A stretch of DNA of 64,000 nucleotides. Origin: Oscillospiraceae bacterium. GTDB taxonomy: Bacteria; Bacillota; Clostridia; Oscillospirales; QAMX01. The notes beneath the pieces were generated by a model that saw only the letters and a list, made by a program, of their open reading frames with translations, did not search any database and had not been told where the DNA came from. Below are positions 2,280 to 27,099 of the stretch, one piece after another. Every line of letters begins with the position of its first letter. Position 1 is the stretch's first letter. The stretch covers positions 1-64,000 of the forward strand of contig SVLQ01000005.1 of NCBI GenBank assembly GCA_015067825.1. The letters run 5' to 3'. The translations under genes were made by a program, and so were the position numbers.

Positions 2280-2476
2280 AGGAATCCACTTCCTTTTCGT
2301 TCTTTTGCAATTATTATACGCCTTTATTAGGAAAAACGCAAATCTTTTAGAGCCTAACAAAATAAAAACGGCACAGAAAAATAAAGTTCGCCGAACGCTT
2401 GACAGCGGCGGTCATCTATGGTAGCATTTACACAAGCACGATCCCCTCTGAAAAACTTGGAAACGAGGTTGGAGAC

Positions 2477-4855: not shown

Positions 4856-4887
4856 CGCGAACATATATAGAGAAAGGTGAGAAAACC

Positions 4888-7477: not shown

Positions 7478-8035
7478 GTGTCTGACCGAGTAAGAGAAAT
7501 TGCCGAACGACTGAAGACGATGCGCGAGATCGCGGGATTATCGGTAGAGGAGCTGGGCGAACGCCTGACGATCACGACCGAAGCATATGCGGAAATGGAA
7601 GCCGGGGAAGTCGATATTCCCATCAGCGTGCTTTGTGAAGCTGCCGATATCTTCGGGATCTCCGTCACCGAGCTGCTGACGGGCGACCGCGCCAAGCTGA
7701 AGATGTACTCTGTTGTCCGCAAGGGCAGGGGAATCGGTGTCGAGCGCACGGCCGGTTACAGCTACTCGGCGCTGGCGCACGGTTTTGCCGACCGCAAGGT
7801 AGAACCGCTGCTGGTAACGATCGAACCCAAATCGGAGACCGCCGAGCTGCATATGAACACGCACAGCGGCCACGAATACCATTACTGCCTGGAAGGCGAG
7901 ATGCGCCTCTACATCGGCGGTCACGAGCTGACGATCCGCGAGGGCGACTCCGTTTATTTTGATTCCAAATATCCGCACGCGATGCGCGCGTTGAGCGATA
8001 AACCGGTCAAGCTGATCGTTATCGTCATCAAGTGA
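7478..8035 (+). CDS. XRE-family HTH plus cupin transcriptional regulator
   Basis: N-terminal HTH (LKTMREIAGLSVEELGERL) and C-terminal cupin (HSGHEYHYCLEGEMRLYIGGHELTIREGDSVYFDSKYPHAMRA). GTG start after GAAGGAGG. Confidence 0.88.
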   Translation: MSDRVREIAERLKTMREIAGLSVEELGERLTITTEAYAEMEAGEVDIPISVLCEAADIFGISVTELLTGDRAKLKMYSVVRKGRGIGVERTAGYSYSALAHGFADRKVEPLLVTIEPKSETAELHMNTHSGHEYHYCLEGEMRLYIGGHELTIREGDSVYFDSKYPHAMRALSDKPVKLIVIVIK

Positions 8036-10026: not shown

Positions 10027-10055
10027 TTGACAAATTGCCACAAATAAAATATCAT
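10027..10055 (+). promoter_or_regulatory. candidate promoter for the solute-binding protein/permease locus
   Basis: TTGACA, 17-nt spacer, TATCAT; ~220-nt 5' UTR to the ATG. Confidence 0.5.
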
Positions 10056-10283: not shown

Positions 10284-13200
10284 ATGCGGAAGTTTACCAA
10301 AACAGGCGAAAGCCGGACAGCATTCTTCAGCAGAGTGAGAAAGAAACTCACTCGCAGTGTCGAATTCCTTCTCGCGGCGGCTATGCTCATGTCCGTCGCA
10401 ACGGGCGCGCTGAATGTCAGCGTGAGCGCGGCAGAGGGGATCGAATCAGTCGACAAAACGTTTGCCTCGAACAACTTCAAAGAAGGCTCGTATGGCTGGT
10501 ATGAAAGCCAGCACGCCGACAAGCCGCAGTATCAGGGCGATGATATCGTCATTCCTGCTGCCGACTATGTCGACACGAATATGAACCTGAAAGTGTTCGC
10601 CGAGTATGAAGGCCTGCAGAATGTCCTTCTTGTTCCGGAAATGTCCATCGAACAGGAAGAAGCCACTGCCGGCAATACCGGCAACGAAAGTGACCTCGAA
10701 CTGGTCGACTACGACCCGGCTTTTGTTTCCTACAAAGTGACGGTTCCGGAATCGGCGATGTACGAGATCTACTTCAAGTATTTCCCCGTCGAAGGTAAGG
10801 GCGCGGACATTGAACGCGAAATCTACATCGACGGCGAACTCCCGTTCATCGAATCTACTTACCTCGCGTTCTCCCGTATTTGGAAGGACGTTGAGAAAGT
10901 CGGTACCGTCTTTGATACGGCCGGCAACGAAATTCGTCCTTCTACGGTTGAAGCTCCGGAGTGGACGACGAAGTACCTGAATGATGACCGTGGCTACTAT
11001 TTCGATTCGTTCAGCTTCTATCTGGAAGCCGGCGAACACGAAATCAAAGTTGTCTCCATTAAGGAGCCGATGATGCTCGCGGAAATCGGCGTCGGCAATG
11101 AGCCCGAACTGAAGAGCTATGCCGAAGTCAAGGCGGAATATGCCGCCAACGGTTATGTTGCCTCCAACGGCCAGACCGTGAAGATCGAAGCGGAAGATAC
11201 CTACAAGAAGAGTGCTTCTTCTCTGTATCCGTATCACAGCCGTTCCTCCGTCAGCACGACCGGTATGAGCGGCAGCTTCACCTACGACCACACGCAGGTT
11301 AACGTTATCGGCGGCGAACGCTGGGAACAGGCCGGCCAGTGGATTTCGTGGTCTTTGACGGTTCCGGAAAGCGGTCTGTACACGATCTCGCTCCGCGGCC
11401 GCCAGAATGTCAACAAGGGTGAATCTTCGGGTCGATGCCTGCGTATCAACGGCGTCGTTCCGTTTGAAGAAGCCGAGAACTGCGCGTTCTACTACGACGC
11501 GGACTTCCGCTTCTACACGCTTGGTGATGCCGAAGTCGGTGAAGCGTTCCAGTTCTACTTTGAAGCCGGCAAGACCTATGAAATTCAGCTGCAGGCGAAC
11601 CTCGGTATCATCGAAGATCTGGCGCGTCGTCTCGACACGTCCGTTTCTGCTCTGATGACGGTCTACCGCCGCTTGCTGATGCTCATCGGCAACGAACCGG
11701 ACCTTGAACGCGACTACAACTTCCATATGTACATGCCGGAAGAACTGGCGATCATGGGCGAACAGGCGGATGAGCTGATGGCGATCCACAACGAAATGCT
11801 CGAGCTCACCGGCGAACGTACTTCTGATATGGCCACGTTGGAACGCTCCGCGGAACGTCTCTACACGATGTCCACGAAGCAGCACCTGATTGCCAAGAAC
11901 TTCACGCAGTTCAAGAGTGACGTTTCCGCCATCGCGGAATTCATTCTCGACCTGAACTATCAGCCGCTGGAAGTCGACTACTTTATCGTCGCTTCCCCCG
12001 ACGCTGAACTGCCCGAAGCCAATGCCGGCTTCTTCGCCGGTCTCGGCCACGAGCTGAAACTGTTCATCTCCTCGTTCACGACGGACTACACCGCCATCGG
12101 TTCCGAAAGCAGCGCCGAAGACGCGATCACCGTTTGGTTTGCTCCGACCGCGACGGGTAACGCCAACACGCTCTCCGTCGTCGGCGGTGGCCGTGAACAG
12201 GCGCAGATCCTTAAGCAGATGATCGATGACGACTTCCGAGTCAACAATCCGGATATTCCGGTCAACCTCCAGCTGATCGACCTCGGCGCACTGCTGCCGG
12301 CGACGCTGGCCGGCAAAGGCCCGGACGTCGCACTGCAGGTTGCGGGTACCAACCCGGTCCAGTACGCGATGCGTGGCGCGGTCGTTGACCTCGCGCAGTT
12401 TGCTGACTTCGAACAGGTCGCCGATCGTTTCTTCGACAGTTCGCTGGTTCAGTTCACCTATCAGAACGGTGTCTACGCGCTGCCGGAAACCCAGACCTTC
12501 CAGGTTATGTTCTACCGTACCGATATTATGGATGAACTCGGCCTCGAAATTCCGGAGACCTGGTCTGACGTCTACGACATCATCCCCGAACTCCAGAACA
12601 ACTACATGAACTTTGGCTTCCCGGCCAACGTCAACAACTACTACACGCTGCTGTACCAGAACGGCGGTACGCTCTATCGCGGCGAAGGCGAAACCCTCGG
12701 TTATGCCACCAACCTCGACTCGCAGACGGCAATCGAAGCCTTCATTGCCTACGTCGACCTGTACCGCAGCTACAAGATCGACCTGTCGATCGACTTCCAG
12801 AACCGCTTCCGTACCGGTGAAGTTCCGATCGGTGTTTCCGACTTTACGACGATGAACGCCCTGAGCGTTACCGCGCCGGAAATCCGCGGTCTGTGGGACT
12901 TCGCTCTGGTTCCGGGTATCGAACGCGTTGACGAAGAAACCGGCGAAACCTTCATCGACCGTTCCGTCGCGACCAGCGGTAACGGCTGTATCATCCTTGC
13001 GAAGTCCGAGCATCAGGCCAACGCTTGGGAATTCCTCAAGTGGTGGACCTCTGACGGCGCGCAGTCGAGATACTGCCTCGAAGTTGAAGCGACGATGGGT
13101 ATTGCGGCTCGTATCCCGGCGGCGAATATCAACGTCATCGAACAGCAGGCCTGGACGATGGACGAATACAAGCTGCTGATGGCGCAGCGCTCCTGGGCCG

Positions 13201-13388
13201 AAGGTGTTCCGGAAGTTCCGGGCGGCTACTACACCACCCGTCACATGGACAACGCCTTCAACCGTACCTACACCGAAATGACTGACCCGCGCGAAACCCT
13301 GCTCGACTACATTGATGATATCAATAACGAGCTTACCAAGAAGCGTACGGAAATGGGTATCCCCACCGTCGACGATATCATTGAGTAA
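10284..13388 (+). CDS. large secreted extracellular solute-binding protein (family 1) with two N-terminal carbohydrate-binding-like modules
   Basis: Signal peptide (LAAAMLMSVATGALNVSVSAAEG); C-terminal ~400 aa SBP fold (VWFAPTATGN.., YALPETQTFQVMFYRTDIMDELGLEIPETWSDV, ANAWEFLKWWTS). N-terminal duplicated VTVPES..Y...R.YIDG..PF segment. Confidence 0.8.
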   Translation: MRKFTKTGESRTAFFSRVRKKLTRSVEFLLAAAMLMSVATGALNVSVSAAEGIESVDKTFASNNFKEGSYGWYESQHADKPQYQGDDIVIPAADYVDTNMNLKVFAEYEGLQNVLLVPEMSIEQEEATAGNTGNESDLELVDYDPAFVSYKVTVPESAMYEIYFKYFPVEGKGADIEREIYIDGELPFIESTYLAFSRIWKDVEKVGTVFDTAGNEIRPSTVEAPEWTTKYLNDDRGYYFDSFSFYLEAGEHEIKVVSIKEPMMLAEIGVGNEPELKSYAEVKAEYAANGYVASNGQTVKIEAEDTYKKSASSLYPYHSRSSVSTTGMSGSFTYDHTQVNVIGGERWEQAGQWISWSLTVPESGLYTISLRGRQNVNKGESSGRCLRINGVVPFEEAENCAFYYDADFRFYTLGDAEVGEAFQFYFEAGKTYEIQLQANLGIIEDLARRLDTSVSALMTVYRRLLMLIGNEPDLERDYNFHMYMPEELAIMGEQADELMAIHNEMLELTGERTSDMATLERSAERLYTMSTKQHLIAKNFTQFKSDVSAIAEFILDLNYQPLEVDYFIVASPDAELPEANAGFFAGLGHELKLFISSFTTDYTAIGSESSAEDAITVWFAPTATGNANTLSVVGGGREQAQILKQMIDDDFRVNNPDIPVNLQLIDLGALLPATLAGKGPDVALQVAGTNPVQYAMRGAVVDLAQFADFEQVADRFFDSSLVQFTYQNGVYALPETQTFQVMFYRTDIMDELGLEIPETWSDVYDIIPELQNNYMNFGFPANVNNYYTLLYQNGGTLYRGEGETLGYATNLDSQTAIEAFIAYVDLYRSYKIDLSIDFQNRFRTGEVPIGVSDFTTMNALSVTAPEIRGLWDFALVPGIERVDEETGETFIDRSVATSGNGCIILAKSEHQANAWEFLKWWTSDGAQSRYCLEVEATMGIAARIPAANINVIEQQAWTMDEYKLLMAQRSWAEGVPEVPGGYYTTRHMDNAFNRTYTEMTDPRETLLDYIDDINNELTKKRTEMGIPTVDDIIE

Positions 13389-13402
13389 AGGAGGACGACA
13401 TC

Positions 13403-14368
13403 TTGGCTGAAATCAATAAGACTGCCGGCAGAGTTCCTGTGCAGAATACTGCGTGGCAGAACATTGTGAAGTATTTCAAGTACAAGTGGACGGAAATCAA
13501 AAAGGCTCGCGCCTATTACCTCTTCATTCTTCCTTACGGCTTGATCTTCACGACGTTCATTGTTATCCCTGTTGTTGTCTCTGTCGTTTTGAGCTTTACT
13601 GCGTTCAACATGATCCAGAATCCGCGTTGGATCTTCATTGACAACTACTACCAGCTGTTCATGGTCGACGACCTGTTCCTGACGGCTCTCAAGAACACGC
13701 TCGTCTTCTCCGTTATCACCGGTCCTATCGGCTACCTGATGTGCCTGGGATTTGCGTGGCTGATCAACGAAATGCCGCCGAAGGTTCGTGCGGTCATGAC
13801 GCTCCTCTTCTACGCCCCGGCTATCTCCGGTAACAGCTTCGTTATCTTTACGTTCCTCTTCTCCGCCGACGAATACGGCTTCCTGAACTCCCGTCTCCTG
13901 AACTGGGGCTTCATCACCGAAGCGGTTCCATGGCTGAAAGCGGAACAGACCATTCCCGCCTGCGTTATCGTCGTTATCCTCTGGATGTCGCTCGGTACCG
14001 GCTTCCTTTCGCTCATCGCCGGTCTCCAGAGCGTTGACCGTCAGCTTTACGAAGCCGGCGCGATCGACGGTATCAAGAACCGTTGGCAGGAACTTTGGTA
14101 CATCACGCTGCCTTCCATGAAGCAGCACCTGATGTTCGCCGCCGTTATGACGATTACCAGCTCGTTCGGTATGGGTTCGATGATCACCTCGCTCGTCGGC
14201 TTCCCGTCCCCGAACTATGCTGCGCACACGATCGTCCACCACCTCGAGGACTACGGCAACCTGCGTTTCGAAATGGGCTACGCCTCTGCGATCGCAACGA
14301 TGCTCTTCCTGCTGATGGTCGGTTGTAACCAGGTCATCCAGAAGCTCCTCAGAAAGGTAGGTACCTGA
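13403..14368 (+). CDS. sugar ABC transporter permease (MalF/UgpA type)
   Basis: Multi-TM; EAA loop EAGAIDGIKNRWQELWYITLPSMK. TTG start after AAAGGAGG. Confidence 0.88.
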   Translation: MAEINKTAGRVPVQNTAWQNIVKYFKYKWTEIKKARAYYLFILPYGLIFTTFIVIPVVVSVVLSFTAFNMIQNPRWIFIDNYYQLFMVDDLFLTALKNTLVFSVITGPIGYLMCLGFAWLINEMPPKVRAVMTLLFYAPAISGNSFVIFTFLFSADEYGFLNSRLLNWGFITEAVPWLKAEQTIPACVIVVILWMSLGTGFLSLIAGLQSVDRQLYEAGAIDGIKNRWQELWYITLPSMKQHLMFAAVMTITSSFGMGSMITSLVGFPSPNYAAHTIVHHLEDYGNLRFEMGYASAIATMLFLLMVGCNQVIQKLLRKVGT

Positions 14369-14370
14369 TC

Positions 14371-15270
14371 ATGGCGACAAAACTTGAGACTCCGAAGAAG
14401 CGTTTTCACTTCTTTAAATCCAAGGCGGGTAACCGTGTCAACCGTTCGACTTCGGGTGACTTGGGCGTTTTGATCTTCCTGATCTTCTTCGCAGTGATCA
14501 TGGCCCTCCCGCTGTACTACGCGATCATTCAGTCGCTCAAGCCGCTGAATGAACTGTACATCTTCCCGCCGCGTCTGTACGTTACCGACCCGACGATGGA
14601 CAACTACGCCGACCTCTTCCGCTTGATGTCCAACTCTTGGGTTCCGTTCTCCCGCTACATCTTCAATACCGTTATGATTACCGTTGTCGGTACGTTCGGC
14701 CACATCATCCTCGCGTCGATGGCTGCGTATCCGCTTGCGAAGTATCGTTTCCCTGGCAGCACGGCGTTTGCGAATATCGTCCGCTTCTCGCTGATGTTCA
14801 ATGCGACCGTTCTGACGATTCCGGCCTACATCATCATGGCTGCTCTCGGCTGGATCGATACCTACTTTGCGGTTATCATTCCTGCGTTTGGTACGTCCCT
14901 CGGTCTGTACCTGATGCAGAACTTCATGACTGACCTGCCCGACGCGCTGTTCGATGCTGCGAAGATCGACGGTGCGAAGGAAGGCAGAATCTTCTGGAAG
15001 ATCGTTATGCCCAACGTTAAGTCCGGTTGGCTCACGCTGATGATCTTCTCCGTGCAGTCCCTGTGGAATACCAACAACGGTATGTACATCTACAGCGAAC
15101 CGCTCAAGACCCTGCCGTACGCGATCAGCCAGATCACGAGCGGTGGTTACGCCCGCGCCGGTGCTTCGTCCGCGGCCGTCGTCATCATGATGCTCGTTCC
15201 GATCACAGTCTTTATTATCTCCCAGAGCAACGTTCTCGAAACGATGGCGAAATCCGGTATTAAAGAATAA
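14371..15270 (+). CDS. carbohydrate ABC transporter permease (MalG/UgpE type)
   Basis: Multi-TM; EAA loop DAAKIDGAKEGRIFWKIVMPNVK. Confidence 0.88.
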   Translation: MATKLETPKKRFHFFKSKAGNRVNRSTSGDLGVLIFLIFFAVIMALPLYYAIIQSLKPLNELYIFPPRLYVTDPTMDNYADLFRLMSNSWVPFSRYIFNTVMITVVGTFGHIILASMAAYPLAKYRFPGSTAFANIVRFSLMFNATVLTIPAYIIMAALGWIDTYFAVIIPAFGTSLGLYLMQNFMTDLPDALFDAAKIDGAKEGRIFWKIVMPNVKSGWLTLMIFSVQSLWNTNNGMYIYSEPLKTLPYAISQITSGGYARAGASSAAVVIMMLVPITVFIISQSNVLETMAKSGIKE

Positions 15271-15287
15271 AAGGAGGTCGAGTCCGA

Positions 15288-16865
15288 ATGCGGAAAAGAA
15301 TTCTCGCAGTACTCATGTTGCTGATTATGTTTGCAACAATGGCAGTGTCGGTCTTGGCCGCGCCGCCCACGAAATCCTACTACTACAACCCCGAAGGTCT
15401 GCCGGTCAGCGCACCGAACCCGTACTCCTTTGACGTCGAAATCGACGGCAACAGCTACGGCATCGGCCAGTTCATTGAACCGGAAGACATGATCGTTGAC
15501 AGTGATAACAACATCTATATTCTCGACTCGGGCAATAAGCGTGTTGTTATCTTCAACAGCGACAAAGAACTTGTCCGCGTGATCACCGAGTTCATGTACA
15601 AGGGCGAAGCTCTTGAGCTGAACGGTCCGCAGGGCCTGTTCATCTACGAACACTTCGACAACAAGATGCTCTATGTTGCCGACACGGAAAACAGCCGTAT
15701 TTTCCGCTGCGACCTGCAGTACGAGCTCAAGGGCGAAGTTGCAGTCGATGCCCCGGTCATCGTTGACAAAATGTACACCAAGCCGACGATCGACATCATC
15801 GCCGCGGAAACCCCGTACTACCCCACCAAATTTGTCGTTGACCGTGCGGAGCGTATCTTCGTTCTCGGCCGTACGATCAACCGCGGTATCATCAAGCTGA
15901 CGGAAGACGGTGCCTTCGACTCGTTCTTTGGCGCCCCGGACGTTCAGTATACCTTTGCCGAAAAGATTTGGCGTATGATCTCCACGGATGCCCAGCGTGA
16001 AAAGATGCTGAAGTATGTTCCGACGGAATATTCGAACATCGCAGTCGACACGCGCGGCTTCATCTACGTGACGATCTCCAACATCGACCGTCAGAAGTTG
16101 TATGCTACGTTTAATTCTGAACCGACCGACGTCGATGGCCGTAAGCAGGTTGCCGTTATCAAGAAACTGGCAGCCGACGGTACGGATATCCTCGCGAGAA
16201 CCGGTATCTTCCCGCCGGTCGGCGACCTTTCGGTCTTTGACCCGGAAGCGACGGAAGCGGTTCTTGCCGGTATGTCGTCGTTTGTTGACGTTTGTATCAA
16301 CAACTACGACGTCTACACGATCATTGATGACCAGCGCTGCAAAGTCTTTACCTACGACAACGAAGGCAACATGCTCTTCTGCTTCGGTGGTAAGGGTACG
16401 CAGTACGGTACGTTCCAGAAGCCGGTTGCGGTCTCCTACTTCAAGGATAACCAGGTCTGCATTCTGGATAAGCGTTCCGCGTCTGTCTCGTTCTTCCAGC
16501 CCACCGACTACGGTGCCAACATCCTCGGTGCTGTTCAGGCATACAGCGACGGTGAATACGAGAAGTCCGAAGAGATGTGGGTTCGCGTTCTGGAAATGAA
16601 CTCCAACATGACGCAGGCCTACTCCGGCGTCGGTAAGTCGATGCTCCGTGCCGGTGAATTCAGAGAAGCGATGCAGTGCTTCAAGATCGCTAAGAACCTC
16701 GAGTACTATTCGAAGGCCCTTGAAGAATACATCTCCGAACTGATCGGCAACAGCTTTACGTACATCTTCTTGGTCATTGTTGGTGCGTACCTGCTCTTCA
16801 CGGGCTTCAAGGCGGTCAAACGTTTCAGAAGATTCCTGCGTGAAGGCGTTAAGAAGGTGGTGTAA
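15288..16865 (+). CDS. secreted/membrane-anchored NHL-repeat protein with C-terminal TPR-like segment and TM helix
   Basis: Signal peptide; NHL-type repeats (PEDMIVDSDNNIYILDSGNKRVVIFNSD; GPQGLFIYEHFDNKMLYVADTENSRIFRCD); TPR-like QAYSDGEYEKSEEMWVRVLEMNSNMTQAYSGVGKSMLRAGEFREAMQCFKIA; C-terminal TM then basic tail. Confidence 0.75.
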   Translation: MRKRILAVLMLLIMFATMAVSVLAAPPTKSYYYNPEGLPVSAPNPYSFDVEIDGNSYGIGQFIEPEDMIVDSDNNIYILDSGNKRVVIFNSDKELVRVITEFMYKGEALELNGPQGLFIYEHFDNKMLYVADTENSRIFRCDLQYELKGEVAVDAPVIVDKMYTKPTIDIIAAETPYYPTKFVVDRAERIFVLGRTINRGIIKLTEDGAFDSFFGAPDVQYTFAEKIWRMISTDAQREKMLKYVPTEYSNIAVDTRGFIYVTISNIDRQKLYATFNSEPTDVDGRKQVAVIKKLAADGTDILARTGIFPPVGDLSVFDPEATEAVLAGMSSFVDVCINNYDVYTIIDDQRCKVFTYDNEGNMLFCFGGKGTQYGTFQKPVAVSYFKDNQVCILDKRSASVSFFQPTDYGANILGAVQAYSDGEYEKSEEMWVRVLEMNSNMTQAYSGVGKSMLRAGEFREAMQCFKIAKNLEYYSKALEEYISELIGNSFTYIFLVIVGAYLLFTGFKAVKRFRRFLREGVKKVV

Positions 16866-16868
16866 AAG

Positions 16869-17501
16869 ATGGCGACTCTTTGGAAACAGTTACGTTATTC
16901 GACCCATGTCATGTTCCACCCGTTCGACGGTTTCTGGGATTTGAAGCACGAACACCGCGGCAGCACGAAGTCCGCTACGGTCATCGTTTTACTCCTGGTC
17001 CTCAACGGAATCCTGTCGACGCAGTTCACGGGCTTCCTTTACAACCCGGATTATGACGGCGTCAGCCTCAATATCCTCAGCGAGTTCTTCTCCACGGTCG
17101 GTACATTCCTTCTGTACTGCATCGCCAACTGGGCTCTGACGACCCTGATGGATGGCGAAGGCCGCTTCAGCGATATCTACATGGTCAGTGCTTACGCACT
17201 GATGCCGATGGTTCTGCTGGGCATCCCGCTGACCTTCATCAGCAACGCGATGTCGCTCGACTATGCGGCATTCTACTCGATCGTCAACGCGATCATCTAT
17301 GTCTGGTGCGGCTTCCTGCTCCTGAGCAGCCTGCTCGTTGTTCACCAGTACACGCTCGGCAAGACGCTCCTGACGGCCATCCTGATCGTTGTCGGTATGG
17401 CGATCATCGTCTTCCTGGGCCTCCTGTTCTTCAACCTGATTTCGCAGTTGGTCGGCTTCATCGTCGAACTGTACTGGGAAATCTCGCTCAGATTCTTCTA
17501 A
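16869..17501 (+). CDS. Yip1-like integral membrane protein
   Basis: 210 aa, N-terminal LRYSTHVMFHPFDGFWDLKHEHRGS typical of Yip1-family proteins next to sugar transporters, then ~5 TM segments. Confidence 0.65.
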   Translation: MATLWKQLRYSTHVMFHPFDGFWDLKHEHRGSTKSATVIVLLLVLNGILSTQFTGFLYNPDYDGVSLNILSEFFSTVGTFLLYCIANWALTTLMDGEGRFSDIYMVSAYALMPMVLLGIPLTFISNAMSLDYAAFYSIVNAIIYVWCGFLLLSSLLVVHQYTLGKTLLTAILIVVGMAIIVFLGLLFFNLISQLVGFIVELYWEISLRFF

Positions 17502-17516
17502 AGGGGAGGTGTTTGG

Positions 17517-20468
17517 ATGAAGTTAAGAAAATATGCGGTTATCTGCTATATTCTGGCTCTGGCAATGATCTTGCCGCTCAGCACTATGGCAGCTACCGTT
17601 CTCAGCGCCGAATTCGTTGCCCCTGATTATGTCGATCCGTACATTGAAGGCCTGGGTCAGCAGTCTCCGCTCTCGATCAGCATTGACCATGTGGTCGGTG
17701 AAGTTCTGAACATCAAAGTAACCGATTCCCGCACCGGCAAAGTTTGGGAGTCCAACCCGGTTTTCACCAGCGGTGATAAGGCCGGTACGACCGAAGCGAA
17801 GTCCAACGAACTGCATTCGCAGATTGTTCTGACTTACACCTATGACAAGAACGGTAGCGCGGATAAGCTTGCGGATATCGGTTATGTTGCCTCGGCAACC
17901 ACCGAAGCGACGTTCTTCAGCCATCAGGAATCGGTCGTGAAGAATCAGCTCACGATCTACAACATTCTCGACAACGGCGAACTCCTCAGCTACTATGTTG
18001 ATGCGACAGCCGACCCCCTCGAACTCAGCCCGATTCCGGCCGGCCGCACCGTCGTTGGCTACAAAGTCATCTACGGTTTCGGTGACCGTGACCCGGCGCT
18101 CTATCCGATGATGATCACCGAAAGCCGTATGGACCAGTTTGTCTCGCAGATTCAGGTCTTTGCGGAAGACGGTGTGACGCTTGACGAAGAAGCGACCGAA
18201 AAAATGAAGGAAACGCTTCTCAAAAAATATCGCCACGTGAACTACGAAAGCATGCTGGAAGATATTGAGAAAAAAGTCAAGCGTAAGAAGACCGATGCCG
18301 AAAAAGAAGCTCTTCGTAAACAGCTCGAAGAGGAACTTGACAAATACGTCGCCGAATACCCGATCATTATGACCGAAGGTATCTACGAACTGTATTCCGA
18401 CGCGATCAGCACGACGCGTAACAAAAAGCTCCTCATCAGCTACTGGGCCGCAGCCGGTTATACCCGCAGCGATCTGGAATCCGACCACCAGATGGTTGGT
18501 TACGTTTCGAACAGCGGCGGTGTCGCGTTTGACGTCCCGGTCGAATACATCATCGAAGGTAGCACGTTCCGTGCTTCCGTCGTTACCGACGAAATCGTTT
18601 ACCCCTCCGAAGTCGGTATCACCCGTCTGAACTTCCTGCCCGGTTTTGGCGCAGCTGACGACACGGTTGTCGAAGGCTACTCGCTCGTTCCGGACGGCTG
18701 CGGTGCTTTGATCCCGGTGAACGCCGAAGACCAGCGCCAGACCGGTTATCAGGTTCCGGTCATCGGCCGCCACAGAGATGAAGCGCTCTCGCAGAACGGC
18801 AGAGACTATTCGGATATCCCGTACTACGAAACCACGATGCTCCCGGTCTTTGGTCAGAAGCAGGATGATAACGCTTTCTTCTGCATCATCGAAGAGGGCT
18901 ACGAATTCTCGAACGTTGTCGCTTATGTTGCTGACCGTTTCACGAAGTACAACACGGCGTTTGCCGCGTTCTTCCCCACGGTTACCGACGACATCTACTA
19001 TGCCTCCGGCAGCACCAGCGGCATCAAGATGTTCCCGAAGGTTGAAGTTGAAGAAATTGAAACCCGTACGGAACGTTCCATCGACAAAGAAACCGGCGAA
19101 GTCGTGATCGAAGAAGTGGTTAAAGCGGTTGTCAACAATTACTGCCGTCTGCCCGCCACTAACCTCACGCTCCGCTATTCGTTCCTCTCCGGCGACAAGG
19201 CCGACTACGTCGGTATGGCCGAATACTACAGAACTTACCTGATGAATACCCATGGTATGGAAAAGCTGGAAGCGACCGATTCGACCGCTTTCTACGCTGA
19301 CCTGTACGGTATCATGGATAAGAAAGTCAGCTATGTTGGTTTCCCGATCAACACGAAGTATGCGCTCACTACCTTTGAAGAAGCCGAAGAAATCGTCAAC
19401 GGTCTCCTCGGTCTGGGCGTCGAAGATCTCACCGTTCGCTATGTCGGTATGATCAACGGCGGTCTTAACCAGCGTTATGCCGGTAGCTTCAAGGTCGAAC
19501 GCAACCTCGGCGGCAAGAGCGGCTACAAGGATTTCCTTACGAGCATGAGCGCCCTCGGTGTCAATGTTTACCCCGATATCGATGCGATCCATGTCTATCA
19601 GGATAGACTCTTTGACGGCTTCTCGCCGGACAACGATACGGTCATTACCCTCGGTAAGACCGAATCCATCATCTTCGACACCAACATCGCAACTGGTAGA
19701 AAAGACAAACTCGAAGATAGCGAATACTATCATCCGCGTTGGGTCGTTTCGCCGAAGGTCTACGAAGAACTCTTCGATGAGATCGACGAAAACCTTCAGG
19801 ATTTCGACAACAAGAACGTGTCGTTCGGTACGCTGGGTTATCGTCTTGCTTCGGACTACGATCTCGACATGATTATCGACCGTGGCCAGAGCGCCCGCGT
19901 CGTCGCCGATCAGCTGAGACAGCTGGAAGAAAGCGGCTACGACATCATGGTCGAAAGAGGCTTTGTCTACACGCTGCCGTACGTTTCCACCGTGTTGAAT
20001 ATCCCGATGACCTCCAGTGACTTCACCGTTGCTTTGAACGACGTTCCGTTCATGCAGATGGTTATCCACGGCCTCATCGAATTCGCCGGTGAACCCTTCA
20101 ACGTCACGCAGGACGTCCAGTACAACATTCTGAAGTGCCTCGAATACGGCGCGGGTGTCTACGCCAGATTCATGCACGAAGACGACTCTGTCTTCCAGAA
20201 TACGTACTTCCTCAACCTGTTCTCCATGAACTACAAGAACTGGATGGACGAAGCAAAGACGATCTACAGCGAAGTCAACGCTGCGATCGGCGACGTGCAG
20301 AATCAGTTCATCGTGGATCATGAATGCCTGGCTGAAAATGTTTACCGCACCACCTACGAAGGCGGCAAACAGGTCATCGTGAACTACAACACGGCTGACT
20401 TCGTCATCGAAGAACTCGGTGTCACGGTCGGTGCCAGAAATTATGTGGTTATGGGAGGTGCACAGTAA
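17517..20468 (+). CDS. large secreted protein, DUF5696-like, possibly glycan-active
   Basis: Signal peptide (YILALAMILPLSTMAATVLSAE); beta-rich N-terminal region, coiled-coil insertion (KKTDAEKEALRKQLEEELDKY), C-terminal TIM-barrel-like part (MAEYYRTYLM; ALGVNVYPDIDAIHVY). Confidence 0.6.
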   Translation: MKLRKYAVICYILALAMILPLSTMAATVLSAEFVAPDYVDPYIEGLGQQSPLSISIDHVVGEVLNIKVTDSRTGKVWESNPVFTSGDKAGTTEAKSNELHSQIVLTYTYDKNGSADKLADIGYVASATTEATFFSHQESVVKNQLTIYNILDNGELLSYYVDATADPLELSPIPAGRTVVGYKVIYGFGDRDPALYPMMITESRMDQFVSQIQVFAEDGVTLDEEATEKMKETLLKKYRHVNYESMLEDIEKKVKRKKTDAEKEALRKQLEEELDKYVAEYPIIMTEGIYELYSDAISTTRNKKLLISYWAAAGYTRSDLESDHQMVGYVSNSGGVAFDVPVEYIIEGSTFRASVVTDEIVYPSEVGITRLNFLPGFGAADDTVVEGYSLVPDGCGALIPVNAEDQRQTGYQVPVIGRHRDEALSQNGRDYSDIPYYETTMLPVFGQKQDDNAFFCIIEEGYEFSNVVAYVADRFTKYNTAFAAFFPTVTDDIYYASGSTSGIKMFPKVEVEEIETRTERSIDKETGEVVIEEVVKAVVNNYCRLPATNLTLRYSFLSGDKADYVGMAEYYRTYLMNTHGMEKLEATDSTAFYADLYGIMDKKVSYVGFPINTKYALTTFEEAEEIVNGLLGLGVEDLTVRYVGMINGGLNQRYAGSFKVERNLGGKSGYKDFLTSMSALGVNVYPDIDAIHVYQDRLFDGFSPDNDTVITLGKTESIIFDTNIATGRKDKLEDSEYYHPRWVVSPKVYEELFDEIDENLQDFDNKNVSFGTLGYRLASDYDLDMIIDRGQSARVVADQLRQLEESGYDIMVERGFVYTLPYVSTVLNIPMTSSDFTVALNDVPFMQMVIHGLIEFAGEPFNVTQDVQYNILKCLEYGAGVYARFMHEDDSVFQNTYFLNLFSMNYKNWMDEAKTIYSEVNAAIGDVQNQFIVDHECLAENVYRTTYEGGKQVIVNYNTADFVIEELGVTVGARNYVVMGGAQ

Positions 20469-21481
20469 TGGCTGCTAACGTCCAGAAAAAAGAAGGCGTT
20501 TGGTATAAGATCAAGATGTTCATCCTCAGAGCCTTGAAAATGGACCTGATGGAGCGTCGAAATCTTGCAGGCTACGTTTTTGTTCTGCCGTTCGTCCTCG
20601 GTTTTGTGCTGATCTTCCTGCCCTCGATCGTCCAGTCCTTCCGTTTCAGCTTGAGTGAAATCATCATCCGTGCTGACGGTACCGGCTACGATCTGCAGTC
20701 CAGAGGCTTTGCGCATTACTACGATGCGTTCTTTACCGACGTCGACTTCCGCGTGAAGTTGGTCGAGACGCTGCGCGACATCATCATCAACCTTCCGGTT
20801 ATTTTGATCTTCTCCTTCTTTATGGCGTTGCTTCTGAACCGGAAAAAGTTCCCGGGTCGTACGGTGTTCCGTATCATCTTCTTCCTGCCGGTTATCATCT
20901 ACACCGGTATCGCTTCTTCCGCCGGTATCACTTCCGGCGCTGGCGGCGGCGAAGCTGCTGAAGCAGCTGCGCAAGTTTTCGCCGACCCGACCATAGGTCA
21001 GGAAGGCATGCAATCAGGTGTCACCAGTATTATCGGTATGGCCATGAACATTCAGGTCATCATCCAGAACCTAGGCCTTGGTCAGACGCTGATGAACTTC
21101 ATCATGCTCTCGATCAGCCGTCTGGAATGGATCATTCAGTCCTCCGGTGTTCAGATCCTCGTCTTCCTTGCCGCGCTGCAGGGTGTTCCGACCTCGATCT
21201 TTGAAGCCGCGAGCGTTGAGGGTCTGACCAGCTGGGAAATGTTCTGGAAGATCACTCTGCCGATGATCAGCCCGCAGATCTTGGTTAACACGATCTATAC
21301 GGTCGTTGACTCCTTCACCAATAACCGTTACGAAGTTCTGTCCTACATCCAGAAGGTTTCCTTCTCGAATGCGAACTACGGTCTCGGTTCGGCTTTGTCA
21401 TTCATTTACTTCGTGTGTACGTTGATCTTGATCGGTTTGGTCACAGTTCTGATCTCGAGATTCGTATTCTACAACGAATAG
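20468..21481 (+). CDS. sugar ABC transporter permease (second pair)
   Basis: Multi-TM; EAA loop EAASVEGLTSWEMFWKITLPMISP. Start ATG overlaps the upstream stop (TAATG). Confidence 0.85.
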   Translation: MAANVQKKEGVWYKIKMFILRALKMDLMERRNLAGYVFVLPFVLGFVLIFLPSIVQSFRFSLSEIIIRADGTGYDLQSRGFAHYYDAFFTDVDFRVKLVETLRDIIINLPVILIFSFFMALLLNRKKFPGRTVFRIIFFLPVIIYTGIASSAGITSGAGGGEAAEAAAQVFADPTIGQEGMQSGVTSIIGMAMNIQVIIQNLGLGQTLMNFIMLSISRLEWIIQSSGVQILVFLAALQGVPTSIFEAASVEGLTSWEMFWKITLPMISPQILVNTIYTVVDSFTNNRYEVLSYIQKVSFSNANYGLGSALSFIYFVCTLILIGLVTVLISRFVFYNE

Positions 21482-21494
21482 GAGGGTGAGCGTA

Positions 21495-22472
21495 ATGGAA
21501 AAGACCCAAAAGACCTATCGCGAAATTGAAAACCTCTCCCATCGTGAAACGACTCGTAAAGAACGTGCGAAGGCCAAGTATCTCTCTTGGAAGTTTGCCG
21601 CCACCGTGTTCGGCAACCTCTTTGCCTATGTTCTGATCATCGGTATCGCGTTCGTTATCGTGTACCCGCTGCTGCGCCGTCTCGGTAACGCGTTCAAGCC
21701 GGTCGAAGAGTTCTACGACACCTCGATCGTCTACTTCCCGAGAAACCCCACCTTCGAGATCATCAAGCAGTCGTTCCAGCGCCTGAACTTTAGACAGGTC
21801 GGTTGGCCGTCGTTCCTGATGGCTCTGTACGTCGGTTTGTTCCAGATGCTGGTTTCGCTGGTTGTCGGTTACGGCTTTGCTCGCTTTAAGTTCAGAGGTT
21901 CCAAGGTCCTGTTCTTCTGCGTCATCCTGACCCTCATCATCCCGCCGAACACCATCCTCATTCCGCTGTACCTGCGTTTCCGTTTCTTCGACATCTTCGG
22001 TATCTTCGAGCTGATCCTTGGTCACTCGCTGAGCTTGATCGACACCTACTGGTGCCAGATCCTGCTTTCCGCACTCGGCCTCGGCTGGAAGAACGGTCTG
22101 TACATCTACCTGATGCGTCAGTACTTCCGCGGTGTTCCGAAGGAACTCGAAGAAGCCGCCTATATCGACGGTGCGCGTACCTTCAAGGCGTTTATTCGCG
22201 TCATGGTGCCCTCGGCTCTGCCGATGATGCTGACGGTGTTCCTGTTCTCCTTCTCGTGGCAGTGGACCGATACGTTCTACACCGGTACCTTCCTCATCAA
22301 GAAGAAGCTGCTGGCGACGAGCGTTAACTCCATCCAGCACGACAACGAACTGATGCAGTTCAACCTGCAGCAGACGGCGATCCTGATCATCCTGATCCCG
22401 TTGATTCTCCTCTTCGTTGTCACGCAGCGCTACTTCGTTGAAGGTATCGAACGTTCCGGTCTGACCGGCTGA
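21495..22472 (+). CDS. carbohydrate ABC transporter permease (second pair)
   Basis: Multi-TM; EAA loop EAAYIDGARTFKAFIRVMVPSALP. ATG at 21495 preferred because the upstream GTG overlaps the RBS GGAGGGTG. Confidence 0.85.
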   Translation: MEKTQKTYREIENLSHRETTRKERAKAKYLSWKFAATVFGNLFAYVLIIGIAFVIVYPLLRRLGNAFKPVEEFYDTSIVYFPRNPTFEIIKQSFQRLNFRQVGWPSFLMALYVGLFQMLVSLVVGYGFARFKFRGSKVLFFCVILTLIIPPNTILIPLYLRFRFFDIFGIFELILGHSLSLIDTYWCQILLSALGLGWKNGLYIYLMRQYFRGVPKELEEAAYIDGARTFKAFIRVMVPSALPMMLTVFLFSFSWQWTDTFYTGTFLIKKKLLATSVNSIQHDNELMQFNLQQTAILIILIPLILLFVVTQRYFVEGIERSGLTG

Positions 22473-22509
22473 TATCCGACAGCAACTCAAACGCAACAAC
22501 TCCTCGAGC

Positions 22510-22548
22510 GGCGAAACGGTTTATTCCGTTTCGCCGTTCTTTTTCTTT
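22510..22548 (+). terminator. intrinsic terminator of the transporter locus
   Basis: GGCGAAACGG TTTATT CCGTTTCGCC followed by GTTCTTTTTCTTT. Confidence 0.8.
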
Positions 22549-22665: not shown

Positions 22666-22995
22666 ATGGCAAATCGTATTTCTGTCAAGATCGGCGGTAT
22701 GACCTATTCGCTGATCGCCGATGAATCAGAGGACTATGTGGAGAAGCTTGCCGCGCGTTTGGATCAGCACTATCCGCGCGAGAACAGTGTGCCGAACATG
22801 ACGGCGGCAATTCTGGCAGGGATTGCGCTGGCGGATGAGCTGACAAAACTGGAAGATAAAACCAAGGAAACATTCGCACAGGTGCGGGAGTACGAGGCCG
22901 AAACGGTGCGCCTGCGCCGCGAGGTTGACGCACTGAAGCGTGAGAATCGCTACCTGCAATCGCTGCACGAAGGCGAGGCGATGCAAAATGGCTGA
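22666..22995 (+). CDS. zapA: cell division protein ZapA
   Basis: MANRISVKIGGMTYSLIADESEDYVEKLAARLDQ plus coiled-coil C-terminus; RBS AGGAGGAAG. Confidence 0.88.
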   Translation: MANRISVKIGGMTYSLIADESEDYVEKLAARLDQHYPRENSVPNMTAAILAGIALADELTKLEDKTKETFAQVREYEAETVRLRREVDALKRENRYLQSLHEGEAMQNG

Positions 22996-23581
22996 ACCGA
23001 ATGCGCTGCCGGTGATTCTGGCGTCGAAATCGCCGCGCCGATCCGAATTGCTCACCCGCATGGGTGTCGATTTTGTGGTAGCGCCGGCTGATGTCGATGA
23101 GAGCGTTGATGCGGCGCTGACTCCGGCCGAGGCCGTTGCGGAGATTTCGGCGCGGAAAGCGCAGGCCGTTTGCGCGGCGGCGCAAACGGGACAAATCGTC
23201 ATCGCCTGCGATACGGTTGTTGCACTCGACGGGAAAATTTTCGGCAAACCGACAGATCGTGCCGATGCGGCGGCAATGCTGCGGGCACTTTCCGGCCGCA
23301 CGCACGAGGTCTTTTCCGGCCTGACGGTTTGCACCGCAACGCACACTGAAACGGTATGCGAGCGCACGGCGGTTAAGTTTAGAGAACTGGACGACCGCGA
23401 AATCGAGGCCTATCTGCAAACCGGCGAACCCTTTGACAAAGCCGGCGCGTACGGAATTCAAGGTGTCGGTGCGCTGCTGATCTCGGCGATCGACGGTGAT
23501 TATTACAATGTGATGGGCCTGCCGGTGTGCAGACTGCTCGCGCTTTTGCGCGCATTTGGGATGCAGGTTTTCGGCATCTGA
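22988..23581 (+). CDS. maf: Maf-like nucleoside triphosphate pyrophosphatase
   Basis: LASKSPRRSELLTRMG, ACDTVVALDGKIFGKP, GAYGIQGVGALLISAIDGDYYNVMGLPV; start overlaps zapA end. Confidence 0.92.
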   Translation: MAEPNALPVILASKSPRRSELLTRMGVDFVVAPADVDESVDAALTPAEAVAEISARKAQAVCAAAQTGQIVIACDTVVALDGKIFGKPTDRADAAAMLRALSGRTHEVFSGLTVCTATHTETVCERTAVKFRELDDREIEAYLQTGEPFDKAGAYGIQGVGALLISAIDGDYYNVMGLPVCRLLALLRAFGMQVFGI

Positions 23582-23601
23582 CGAAACGAGAGGTGAACGG
23601 C

Positions 23602-24447
23602 TTGAAACGATTATTTCAAAATAGGGCGCTGGTAGTCGTTATGGTCATTGTCGCGGTCGTTCTGATCGCTTCGGCGGCGCTGTCGATTTTCTCCGACGGG
23701 ACGTCGGTCGCGCATAAGGTGGCCAATGCGATTGTTTCGCCGTTTGAAAAAGTGTTCACTTCGATCAAAAACGGTGTCGCATCCCTTTGGGAAGCGCAGA
23801 CGCAGTATGATGAACTGTTGGCGGAAAATGAAGAACTGCGCGATGAGATCCGCGAGCTGGAGAAGCTGATTGGCGATGCCGAGCTGTACCGCGCGGAAAA
23901 CGAAGAATTGCGCGCACTGCTCGATATCCGCCGGAGCTATGTCGATCTTTCAATCGATACGGCAACGATCATTGCCTGGAACGACACGAGCTGGGCTTCG
24001 ACGTTTACAATCAACAAAGGTATCCGCGACGGTGTGCAGGAACAGACCTGCGTGATTACCAAGGATGGACTGGTTGGCGTGGTTGAACGTGTGGAGAACA
24101 GCTACGCCGAGGTGCGCACACTGATCGATACGAAGTTCAGCACCGGTGTGCGCCTGAAACGCACGAATTTGTTTGCGGTGGCCAACGGTGAATTTACACT
24201 GATGAAAGACGGTTTGCTGCGCGTGGAGATGTTGCCGCTGGATAGCGATGTCAAAGTCGGCGATCAGCTCGTGACATCCGGTGTCAGCGACTTGTTCCCG
24301 CCGGATATCGTGATCGGCACGGTGACCGCTGTCGATACCGAGGATGGGGGCATGACAATGTATGCCGAGGTGGCGCCGGCGGTGGTGCTGGATGAGCTGA
24401 CGCAGGTGTTTGTGGTGCTCGGCTATGAGGCCGACGCAGCGGAATAA
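23602..24447 (+). CDS. mreC: rod shape-determining protein MreC
   Basis: N-terminal TM, coiled coil, beta domain (IIAWNDTSWASTFTINKGIRDGVQEQTCVIT..GLVGVVERV). TTG start after GAGAGGTG. Confidence 0.9.
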   Translation: MKRLFQNRALVVVMVIVAVVLIASAALSIFSDGTSVAHKVANAIVSPFEKVFTSIKNGVASLWEAQTQYDELLAENEELRDEIRELEKLIGDAELYRAENEELRALLDIRRSYVDLSIDTATIIAWNDTSWASTFTINKGIRDGVQEQTCVITKDGLVGVVERVENSYAEVRTLIDTKFSTGVRLKRTNLFAVANGEFTLMKDGLLRVEMLPLDSDVKVGDQLVTSGVSDLFPPDIVIGTVTAVDTEDGGMTMYAEVAPAVVLDELTQVFVVLGYEADAAE

Positions 24448-24479
24448 CACGAAATTTTCATGGAAAGGGGAGAGTACCG

Positions 24480-25007
24480 ATGAATATCGCTCGTAAAGAT
24501 CTTTTGGTCAAGGTTTTCACAGTGCTGCTGCTGACGATTCTGACGGCTGCGCTGGAAGTTTCGGTGCTTTCCTCGCTGCCTGTCTTCGGCGTGACGCCAA
24601 CGCTGCTCTTTTTCATCGTGGCGGCGGTCGCTGTGTTTGAGGGCCCGACGGCCGGTTCGCTGTGCGGTTTGCTGGCTGGGATCTTTATGGATGGTCTGGG
24701 TGCCAAAACGCTCTGCTGGTACACCGTTGCTTCGGTCGGTACGGCCTTTTTAATCGGTGTGTTGTCGCCGCTCTATTTTCGGCGCCGTATTCCGACTGCG
24801 ATGCTTTGGGGCGCGGTCTTTTGGTTGCTGATCGAATTTTGCCGCTTCTTTTTCTCGTTCTATGTCTTTTCGGAAGCGGAATTTGCGGTGGTGTTCACGG
24901 TGATCCTGCCGCAAACGCTCTATTCGCTGGTGCTTTCGCCAATTGTGATTGCGCCGATTTCACATGTGCACCGCAAGTGGGCACAGGAGCCGGGACTGTT
25001 CCGGTAA
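24480..25007 (+). CDS. mreD: rod shape-determining protein MreD
   Basis: ~175 aa multi-TM protein between mreC and a class B PBP. Confidence 0.85.
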   Translation: MNIARKDLLVKVFTVLLLTILTAALEVSVLSSLPVFGVTPTLLFFIVAAVAVFEGPTAGSLCGLLAGIFMDGLGAKTLCWYTVASVGTAFLIGVLSPLYFRRRIPTAMLWGAVFWLLIEFCRFFFSFYVFSEAEFAVVFTVILPQTLYSLVLSPIVIAPISHVHRKWAQEPGLFR

Positions 25008-25044
25008 TAAAGCTTAGATTTGATAGGTGAGGGAGGTGACGTGC

Positions 25045-27099
25045 ATGGGAAAAACACAGCACATGCTGTGGCGAATTTGTCTGGTGGCGATGTTGGCGCT
25101 GGCGTTGACAGTCACGATGGCGGTGCGCCTGCTGAAGCTGCAGCTTTCGGTGGCGGCGACGGAATCCGCCGAGAATAAGGCCGGAACCGTCGGCAAAACG
25201 ACGCTGTACACGCAGTCACTCGGTGCCATGCGCGGCGAAATCCTCGATCGCTACGGTCGGCCGCTCGTCACCAATGTGGTGCACTACGACCTGCAGTTTG
25301 AATACCCGCTCTGGAACAAAAAAACGCCGAACGAAACGATTCTTGCGCTGTTTGCCTTGTGCGATCGCTTCGACCTTGTATACACCGATGATTTGCCGCT
25401 TTCGCTGCTGTCGGAGAGCTATTTGACCGACCGTACCGGGGCGGACGCGATCGACCGGCGGCTGACGGCATTTTTGGAAGACCGCGGATGGGATACGACG
25501 ATTGAGGCCGACGAACTGATCCACCGCCTGCGCCAGCACTATGGCGTTGATGCGTCGCTTTCCTACGAAGAGGCGCGCCGTCTGGTCGGGCTGCGCTATG
25601 ATCTGGACTGCCAGAGTTTTTCTGCAGCCAACCCGTTTGTCTTTTTGGAAGATGTGCCGATGGAACTGGTGATGCTTGTGGCCGAAGCGCAGGATCAATT
25701 GCCCGGTGTGCGCACGATCACCTCGTACGAACGCATCTACGAGACCGAATATGCGGCGCATCTGCTCGGCTACATGGGCGGCATCTACCGCGATGAATAT
25801 GAAAAACTCAAAGCCGAGGGGTATTCGCTGACCGACCGCATCGGCAAAGACGGTGCGGAAAAGGCATTTGAACCGTACCTGCGCGGAATCGACGGTTATC
25901 GTAAACTGCGACTCGACAGCGACGGCAGAGTTGTGGAGATCGTTGGGGAACAGGCCGCACAAGCCGGCAGCAACGTGATGCTGACGATCGATATCCGCCT
26001 GCAGGCCGTCGTGGAGCAGGCTCTGGCCGATCAGATCGAGCTGATGGTGGCCGAAGGGATCGAAGATCCCGAAAAGGCGCAGGATGTCGGCGGCGGTGCG
26101 GCGGTTGTCATCGATATTGCAACAGGTGATATTTTAGCGAGCGCGTCATACCCGACCTTTGATGTGTCCGAGTTTTATGCGCTCTACAACAGTTTGGCGG
26201 CTGATCCGCTCAAGCCGATGCTCAACCGCGCGGTCGGCGGCATCTATTCGCCCGGCTCGATCTTCAAAATGGTCACATCGGTGGCCGGACTGGAGCAGGG
26301 CGTCATCACGCCCGAAACGATCATCCCGGACACGGGCGTCTATCGCTACTACAAAGACTACCAGCCGACGTGTTGGCTCTATACGTCTTCCTACGGCCTG
26401 ACGCACGGCGACGAGACCGTTGTCGGTGCGCTGCGCGACTCCTGCAACATCTTCTTCTTTGATGTTGGACGGCAGCTCGGCATCGAACAGCTGTCGGCGT
26501 ATGCGCGGGCATTCGGCTTCGGCGACTACACCGGCATCGAGCTCAGCGGTGAATCGCGCGGATATGTCGCATCGCCGGAGGCGAAGAGAAAGCTGGAAGG
26601 CCATGCATGGGTCGACGGCGATACGCTGGCAGCGGCCATCGGTCAGTCGTCGAACCTCTTTACGCCGCTGCAGATGGCAAACTATATCGCCACGCTTGCC
26701 AACGGCGGCACGCGCTACGAAACGCATCTTTTGAAGTACGTCTGCGCCTACGACTATTCGTCGGTGCTGTCCGCGTCGCAGTCGGTGATTGCCGGGCGCG
26801 TGGAGATGTCGGATCTGACATACCGGACGGTCATGGAAGGGATGTCGGAGGTTACCGAAAACGGTACGGCGGCCGGCGCGTTTAAGAATTACGATATCCA
26901 TGTCGGCGGTAAAACCGGTTCGGCACAGGTCGCATCGGGCACGGCCAACAGCGTGTTCGCGGCGTTCGCGCCGTTTGAGGATCCACAGATCGCCGTCGTC
27001 GTCATCGTTGAGCACGGCGGATCGGGCAACCGCATTGCGCCGATCGCGCGCAATATTTTCGACGCTTATTTTGCACTGAACGATACAATCGGACAGTAA
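25045..27099 (+). CDS. mrdA: penicillin-binding protein 2 (class B transpeptidase)
   Basis: SPGSIFKM (SxxK), SCN (SxN), KTGS motifs; PBP dimerisation domain; adjacent to mreCD. Confidence 0.9.
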   Translation: MGKTQHMLWRICLVAMLALALTVTMAVRLLKLQLSVAATESAENKAGTVGKTTLYTQSLGAMRGEILDRYGRPLVTNVVHYDLQFEYPLWNKKTPNETILALFALCDRFDLVYTDDLPLSLLSESYLTDRTGADAIDRRLTAFLEDRGWDTTIEADELIHRLRQHYGVDASLSYEEARRLVGLRYDLDCQSFSAANPFVFLEDVPMELVMLVAEAQDQLPGVRTITSYERIYETEYAAHLLGYMGGIYRDEYEKLKAEGYSLTDRIGKDGAEKAFEPYLRGIDGYRKLRLDSDGRVVEIVGEQAAQAGSNVMLTIDIRLQAVVEQALADQIELMVAEGIEDPEKAQDVGGGAAVVIDIATGDILASASYPTFDVSEFYALYNSLAADPLKPMLNRAVGGIYSPGSIFKMVTSVAGLEQGVITPETIIPDTGVYRYYKDYQPTCWLYTSSYGLTHGDETVVGALRDSCNIFFFDVGRQLGIEQLSAYARAFGFGDYTGIELSGESRGYVASPEAKRKLEGHAWVDGDTLAAAIGQSSNLFTPLQMANYIATLANGGTRYETHLLKYVCAYDYSSVLSASQSVIAGRVEMSDLTYRTVMEGMSEVTENGTAAGAFKNYDIHVGGKTGSAQVASGTANSVFAAFAPFEDPQIAVVVIVEHGGSGNRIAPIARNIFDAYFALNDTIGQ

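Follow-up and report, generated by a model that had tools for sequence, protein, structure and literature searches.

Does a single run of eight genes that encodes two pairs of sugar permeases, a giant substrate-binding protein (SBP) and three further envelope proteins represent one uptake system or two neighboring ones? The question is raised by positions 10284-22472 of a 64,000-nucleotide stretch of Oscillospiraceae bacterium contig SVLQ01000005.1 (the whole stretch is hereafter called the window). Here, we consider it probable that the locus encodes one conserved envelope glycan-uptake machine, in which two ATP-binding cassette (ABC) importers of the CUT1 type would be coupled by an extracytoplasmic scaffold. 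The region contains eight collinear open reading frames (ORFs) on the + strand, and the ORF calls, their strand and their Pfam and NCBIfam matches agree with the domains named in the original prediction, which was made from the DNA letters alone. The genes and their flanking signals are as follows:

10027..10055, + strand: candidate sigma-70-type promoter, TTGACA-17-TATCAT, 11/12 consensus
10284..13388, + strand: giant SBP, 1034 amino acids (aa), with a hydrophobic N-terminal helix, two CBM35-like domains, a helical linker and SBP_bac_1 (640-927)
13403..14368, + strand: PermA, CUT1 permease, MalF/UgpA-like, with an EAA loop (Pfam/NCBIfam)
14371..15270, + strand: PermB, CUT1 permease, MalG/UgpE-like, with an EAA loop (Pfam/NCBIfam)
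15288..16865, + strand: NHL beta-propeller/TPR protein with a signal peptide and a C-terminal transmembrane helix at 485-503 (Pfam)
16869..17501, + strand: Yip1-domain multi-spanning membrane protein (Pfam Yip1)
17517..20468, + strand: DUF5696 protein, 983 aa, secreted or membrane-anchored (Pfam), with a GH129/GH101-like predicted fold and T772/E813
20468..21481, + strand: PermC, permease in the MalF position, with an EAA loop (NCBIfam, below the Pfam cut-off)
21486..22472, + strand: PermD, CUT1 permease, MalG-like, with an EAA loop (Pfam/NCBIfam)
22506..22539, + strand: intrinsic terminator with a 14-bp stem and a T-run, strongest of 23 terminator-like matches in the region

The principal evidence for a single system is the conservation of this cassette. 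We collected up to 20 kb around 40 DUF5696 matches, together with 80 named loci from a pattern scan of a genome collection, for which a closer set of aligned DUF5696 sequences was used. Genes were called in these loci and labelled by profiles made from the window proteins, and removal of near-identical loci left 117 non-redundant loci, the window included. The full set in the order SBP-PermA-PermB-NHL-YIP-DUF5696-PermC-PermD was present in 98 of the 117, or in 98 of the 107 that were untruncated. In these complete loci, Yip1 was encoded by a separate gene (81), fused to the NHL protein (NHL~YIP, 14) or not called (3); the remaining 19 loci comprised 10 cut by contig or stretch ends, 7 half-cassettes and 2 without one permease call. 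Intergenic gaps across homologous loci were short (median 5 bp; 97% not exceeding 50 bp). The carriers span Bacilli, Clostridia and Treponema (Spirochaetes), such as Paenibacillus, Cohnella, Alkalihalobacillus, Gracilibacillus, Amphibacillus, Lachnospiraceae, Butyrivibrio and Halothermothrix. With this order and spacing, the arrangement is far beyond chance, and a coincidental gene cluster was rejected on the basis of synteny across homologous loci. The claim that the locus is one system and exceeds the usual CUT1 operon in size is supported: the NHL, Yip1 and DUF5696 genes go with the permeases, and homologous neighborhoods in which this trio is rarely linked to permeases, which would have spoken against it, were not what we found.

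Among 59 relatives of the window genome, 34 have a DUF5696 match above the cut-off, as do 26 of 300 genomes sampled from the phylum. Some genomes have several DUF5696 genes (six in G329; also G040, G062, G082, G136 and G166 of the phylum sample), which suggests the presence of substrate-specific paralogous cassettes.

The cassette is modular. All seven half-cassettes consist of NHL~YIP-DUF5696-PermC-PermD, the giant SBP and PermA/PermB being gone, and most of them have a second, canonical SBP (SBP2) alongside. At one locus (L149), module A (giant SBP, PermA, PermB) and module B (NHL, Yip1, DUF5696, PermC, PermD) stand in swapped order, and in every complete locus the accessory trio is located between the two permease pairs. 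It follows from the half-cassettes and the swap that the NHL/Yip1/DUF5696 trio belongs with PermC/PermD and SBP2, and that PermA/PermB go together with the giant SBP. The NHL~YIP fusion, which occurs in 14 complete loci and in half-cassettes, implies that the NHL and Yip1 proteins work together.

Judging from the DNA sequence, the eight genes likely form one operon, read as one transcript. Intergenic gaps in the window are, from 5' to 3', 14, 2, 17, 3, 15, -1 and 4 bp, of which the -1 gap is a TAATG overlap between the DUF5696 and PermC genes, and a plausible ribosome-binding site precedes each gene. The strong terminator that had been placed after the last gene was recovered, and no internal + strand terminator of comparable strength was found in the terminator scan of the region. 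The promoter claimed at 10027 fits by its position, but promoter-like sites occur in the region at the chance rate (10 observed vs 9.6 expected). On the - strand, the giant SBP gene and the DUF5696 gene are each faced by a long antisense ORF of 932 aa (10446-13244 and 17523-20321); there is no evidence that they are coding, and they are probably a by-product of codon usage.

In the AlphaFold2 model of the giant SBP (predicted local distance difference test, pLDDT, 85), an N-terminal helix is followed by two beta-sandwich domains, then by a helical linker and the SBP domain. One beta-sandwich domain is a duplicate of the other (hhalign probability 99.5), and a profile of the two gives weak matches to CBM35-bearing proteins of the PDB (best E 1.4e-4). 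The N-terminal region of an orthologue scored 14.3 bits against the 28-bit Pfam cut-off for CBM_35. Because of this sub-cut-off score and of PDB profile matches reaching only E 1e-4, we regard the domains as CBM35-like and not as members of this carbohydrate-binding module (CBM) family. The SBP domain matches SBP_bac_1 (PF01547, 9.7e-26) and has the fold of oligosaccharide SBPs, its closest solved relative being the beta-1,2-glucooligosaccharide SBP Lin1841 (5YSB series), a 397-residue construct without CBM-like N-terminal domains that shares only the SBP domain with the giant SBP. Most members of the giant SBP family have a hydrophobic N-terminal segment and lack a lipobox, and the protein is membrane-anchored.

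The EAA motif that is characteristic of CUT1 permeases was read in all four permease sequences. Pfam BPD_transp_1 matches the permeases, PermC only below the cut-off, and the identity of PermC is backed by several NCBIfam permease models as well as by synteny. No MalK-type ATPase is encoded in the locus, and the window genome has exactly one OB_MalK match (G000, C5:174817). The NHL protein matches Pfam NHL and, weakly, TPR, and the Yip1 protein belongs to its Pfam family (62 bits, 9e-17; cut-off 28.6).

The DUF5696 protein of the window matches its Pfam family at 6e-160. The best fold match of its model (pLDDT 82.8) is a ZgGH129-like 3,6-anhydro-D-galactosidase (5opq, E 1e-29), followed by NagBb, an enzyme of glycoside hydrolase (GH) family 129 (5wzn, E about 1e-22 to 1e-21), and then by GH101, GH31 and GH36; a DUF5696 profile search finds the ZgGH129-like enzyme at 5e-14. 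DUF5696 thus has a fold in common with GH129/ZgGH129-like (DagB) and GH101 enzymes (beta-sandwich, TIM barrel, C-terminal beta-sandwich), with significant profile similarity, but their catalytic Asp/Glu pair is not conserved. We take Glu478 to be the acid/base residue of NagBb. The nucleophile is Asp435, the sole residue common to DagB (PMC5698469). Paralogues of ~600 aa from relatives of the window genome served to transfer both positions: in an alignment with NagBb, one of these paralogues retains both residues, and a profile alignment then places the positions at T772 and E813 of the window protein. Among 41 DUF5696 members, Asp is present at the nucleophile position in 27 and D/E at the acid/base position in 13, and the conserved residues R789, N816 and D780 differ from the GH129 pair. 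As the pair is absent in nearly all members, the window protein included, DUF5696 was not filed under GH129. It is probably a pseudo-glycosidase, glycan binding without GH129-type catalysis being its most likely role. The suggestion that captured glycan is also processed is therefore not supported, and no positive evidence emerged for the sensing role that had been proposed with it. A separate family of DUF5696-like paralogues of ~600-660 aa occurs in the taxonomic family of the window genome (L059, L239-L247); the L059 paralogue retains both GH129 catalytic positions and may be an active enzyme.

With regard to the substrate, 74 genes scanned downstream of cassettes included GH10 (14), GH43 (9) and GH53 (5), as well as GH3, GH9 and GH5, and a second sample of cassette neighbors contained GH26, GH43, GH31, GH35, GH3 and GH16. 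These neighborhoods support plant-type glycans as the putative substrate class, differing between lineages. A function in glycan uptake, as originally predicted, is supported by such glycosidase neighbors (GH10, GH43) together with the CBM35-like domains and the relationship to Lin1841. The cassette of the window is flanked by an acyl-CoA ligase-like gene upstream and by maf-mreC-PBP2 downstream; an attempt to assign the substrate from these flanks failed, as they are housekeeping genes. The downstream group, maf-mreC-(mreD-like)-PBP2 (22940-27099), begins directly past the terminator and is not conserved next to homologous cassettes.

The proposed machine would most likely work as follows. 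In module A, the membrane-tethered giant SBP would hold the glycan by its two CBM35-like domains and load oligosaccharides via its SBP domain, and PermA/PermB would import them. Anchorage by a C-terminal helix would allow the NHL/TPR propeller to form a membrane docking platform with the paired or fused Yip1 protein. DUF5696 would bind glycan ends without cutting them, hold the glycan at the surface and aid ligand delivery. PermC/PermD would take their ligand from SBP2 lipoproteins, which are cassette-adjacent in most lineages and dispersed orphans in the window genome, and the single ATPase of the MalK/MsmX type would presumably power both permease pairs.

Other explanations need to be weighed against such a machine. 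The locus might encode two CUT1 importers that act independently on related sugars and are co-transcribed by chance, with NHL, Yip1 and DUF5696 as ordinary accessory genes. The separability of modules A and B (half-cassettes; the L149 order) and the EAA loop that every permease has of its own would agree with this; however, the order and near-zero spacing kept in 98/107 untruncated loci of Bacilli, Clostridia and Spirochaetes, the NHL~YIP fusions and the position of the trio between the permease pairs make it unlikely. It is less probable still that DUF5696 is an active GH129/GH101-type glycosidase trimming the captured glycan: although the fold and profile matches given above and the Asp in 27/41 members speak for activity, an acid/base carboxylate is limited to 13/41 and both carboxylates to 4/41, Thr occupies the nucleophile position in the window protein, and none of the residues that are conserved (R789, N816, D780) belongs to the GH129 pair. 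About as improbable, or slightly more so, is a machine that recycles the envelope polymers of the cell itself (exopolysaccharide, wall glycan) and not foreign glycans. The location of the window cassette directly upstream of maf-mreC-(mreD-like)-PBP2 and the envelope association of all parts would be consistent with recycling, but that neighborhood is not conserved, and elsewhere cassettes are accompanied by plant-polysaccharide enzymes (GH10, GH43, GH53, GH26, GH3, GH9).

On the other hand, three observations weigh against the one-machine interpretation. The enzymes flanking the cassettes vary between lineages and the neighbors in the window are unrelated, so that no single substrate is indicated; the four DUF5696 members holding both carboxylates could be active; and all surveyed loci were anchored on DUF5696, so that the survey covers relatives of NHL/Yip1 and of module A only where they accompany DUF5696.

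Beyond the original prediction, we found that 80 of 121 loci have an SBP2, usually a lipoprotein, as the immediate neighbor of the cassette (36 upstream, 44 downstream); most cassettes outside the order of the window genome are accompanied by one. No SBP2 is present next to the cassette of the window genome (G000), which has ten full-length SBP2-type lipoproteins elsewhere: three on C5 (108.6-113.7k), four on C14 (110.8-118.1k), two on C13 (28.4k, 79.2k) and one on C18 (20.7k) (L184-L188). A lipobox and a T-rich linker are shared by these orphans, none of which has a permease nearby. Even more SBP2-type matches were found in relatives (73 in G345, 45 in G350, 39 in G303, 36 in G337 and 31 in G324). 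In G345, a PermD query recovered no more than two proteins, both of them encoded within the cassette; PF00528 found eleven permeases, four of them in the cassette and the other seven not recovered by the PermD query. The CUT1-like permeases detected in G345 are thus all in the cassette, and no permease lies within 5 kb of an SBP2 among the matches listed (of 73). In a tree built by a quick method (split support 93), 40 of 43 orphan SBP2s group with 48 of 54 cassette-adjacent SBP2s, apart from the SBPs with their own permeases; this control group falls together as a whole, along with four outlying adjacent SBPs, and is supported by a starred branch. Nine of the 28 genomes that carry the cassette had at least 14 SBP2 matches, against 1 of 30 others, which is indicative only, these being related draft genomes; the difference in SBP counts (Mann-Whitney p = 0.012) is weak for the same reason and also because some cassette-free matches lie in the T-rich linker.

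Based on these data, we tentatively propose, for the window's order of Clostridia-like bacteria, a hub importer: the four-permease cassette and one ATPase might serve dispersed, exchangeable orphan SBP2s, which would dock on a platform made up of NHL/Yip1/DUF5696 that makes their exchange possible. In other systems, chemoreceptors or kinases can receive their input from orphan binding proteins. The orphan SBP2s might likewise be surface adhesins or sensor partners and not importer subunits, in which case the hub would fail and the cassette would still be an importer. Several orphans indeed adjoin the housekeeping genes alaS, mutS2 and smc without permeases; but orphans share a clade with cassette-adjacent SBP2s, and some are found by sugar-catabolic genes (GH2 and arabinofuranosidase in G000; GH4 and oxidoreductase in G345), and we regard the adhesin or sensor role as a somewhat unlikely one. 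The four-gene SBP2 cluster of G000 adjoins alaS, and SBP2 genes of G345 adjoin alaS too (L236).

Upstream of the cassette by 3-6 kb, the segment 4726-7077 encodes a TIM-barrel protein that resembles xylose isomerase as well as a GH4 glycosidase; with the helix-turn-helix (HTH)-cupin regulator that follows (7478-8035), they form a small sugar-catabolic group. An 818-aa ORF without Pfam match (2399-4864, + strand) is overlapped by a 714-aa antisense ORF.

A literature search yielded no paper on DUF5696 and none combining Yip1 with sugar ABC importers, and neither Yip1 nor NHL is mentioned in a transcriptome paper on Paenibacillus JDR-2. Its sequence features would make the cassette a CUT1 variant for which we found no published description. 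The proposed machine would assign roles to DUF5696 and bacterial Yip1 proteins. The surplus of SBPs predicts one importer with many exchangeable SBPs which, if true, would change the way transport capacity is counted from genomes.

The cassette shares with CUT1 importers such as MalEFGK2 and MsmEFGK/MsmX the EAA-loop permeases, the SBP_bac_1 domain and a MalK-type ATPase from elsewhere in the genome. It differs from them in having four permeases, a giant CBM-bearing anchored SBP, and conserved NHL/TPR, Yip1 and DUF5696 proteins in fixed order. In Anaerocellum bescii, two SBPs that differ in specificity deliver to one permease pair with a shared ATPase (Athe_0595-0598; PMC12838199). That system has two SBPs, two permeases and no scaffold proteins, whereas the cassette is proposed to work with as many as dozens of orphan SBPs. 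ECF (energy-coupling factor) hub transporters, in which one engine serves many capturing subunits, and the SusCD systems of Bacteroidetes, in which surface capture is coupled to import, are functional analogies only, and we claim homology with neither. With regard to the latter, the fixed-order cassette may be a counterpart to the machines by which Bacteroidetes capture glycans at the outer membrane, with large glycans held at the surface during import.

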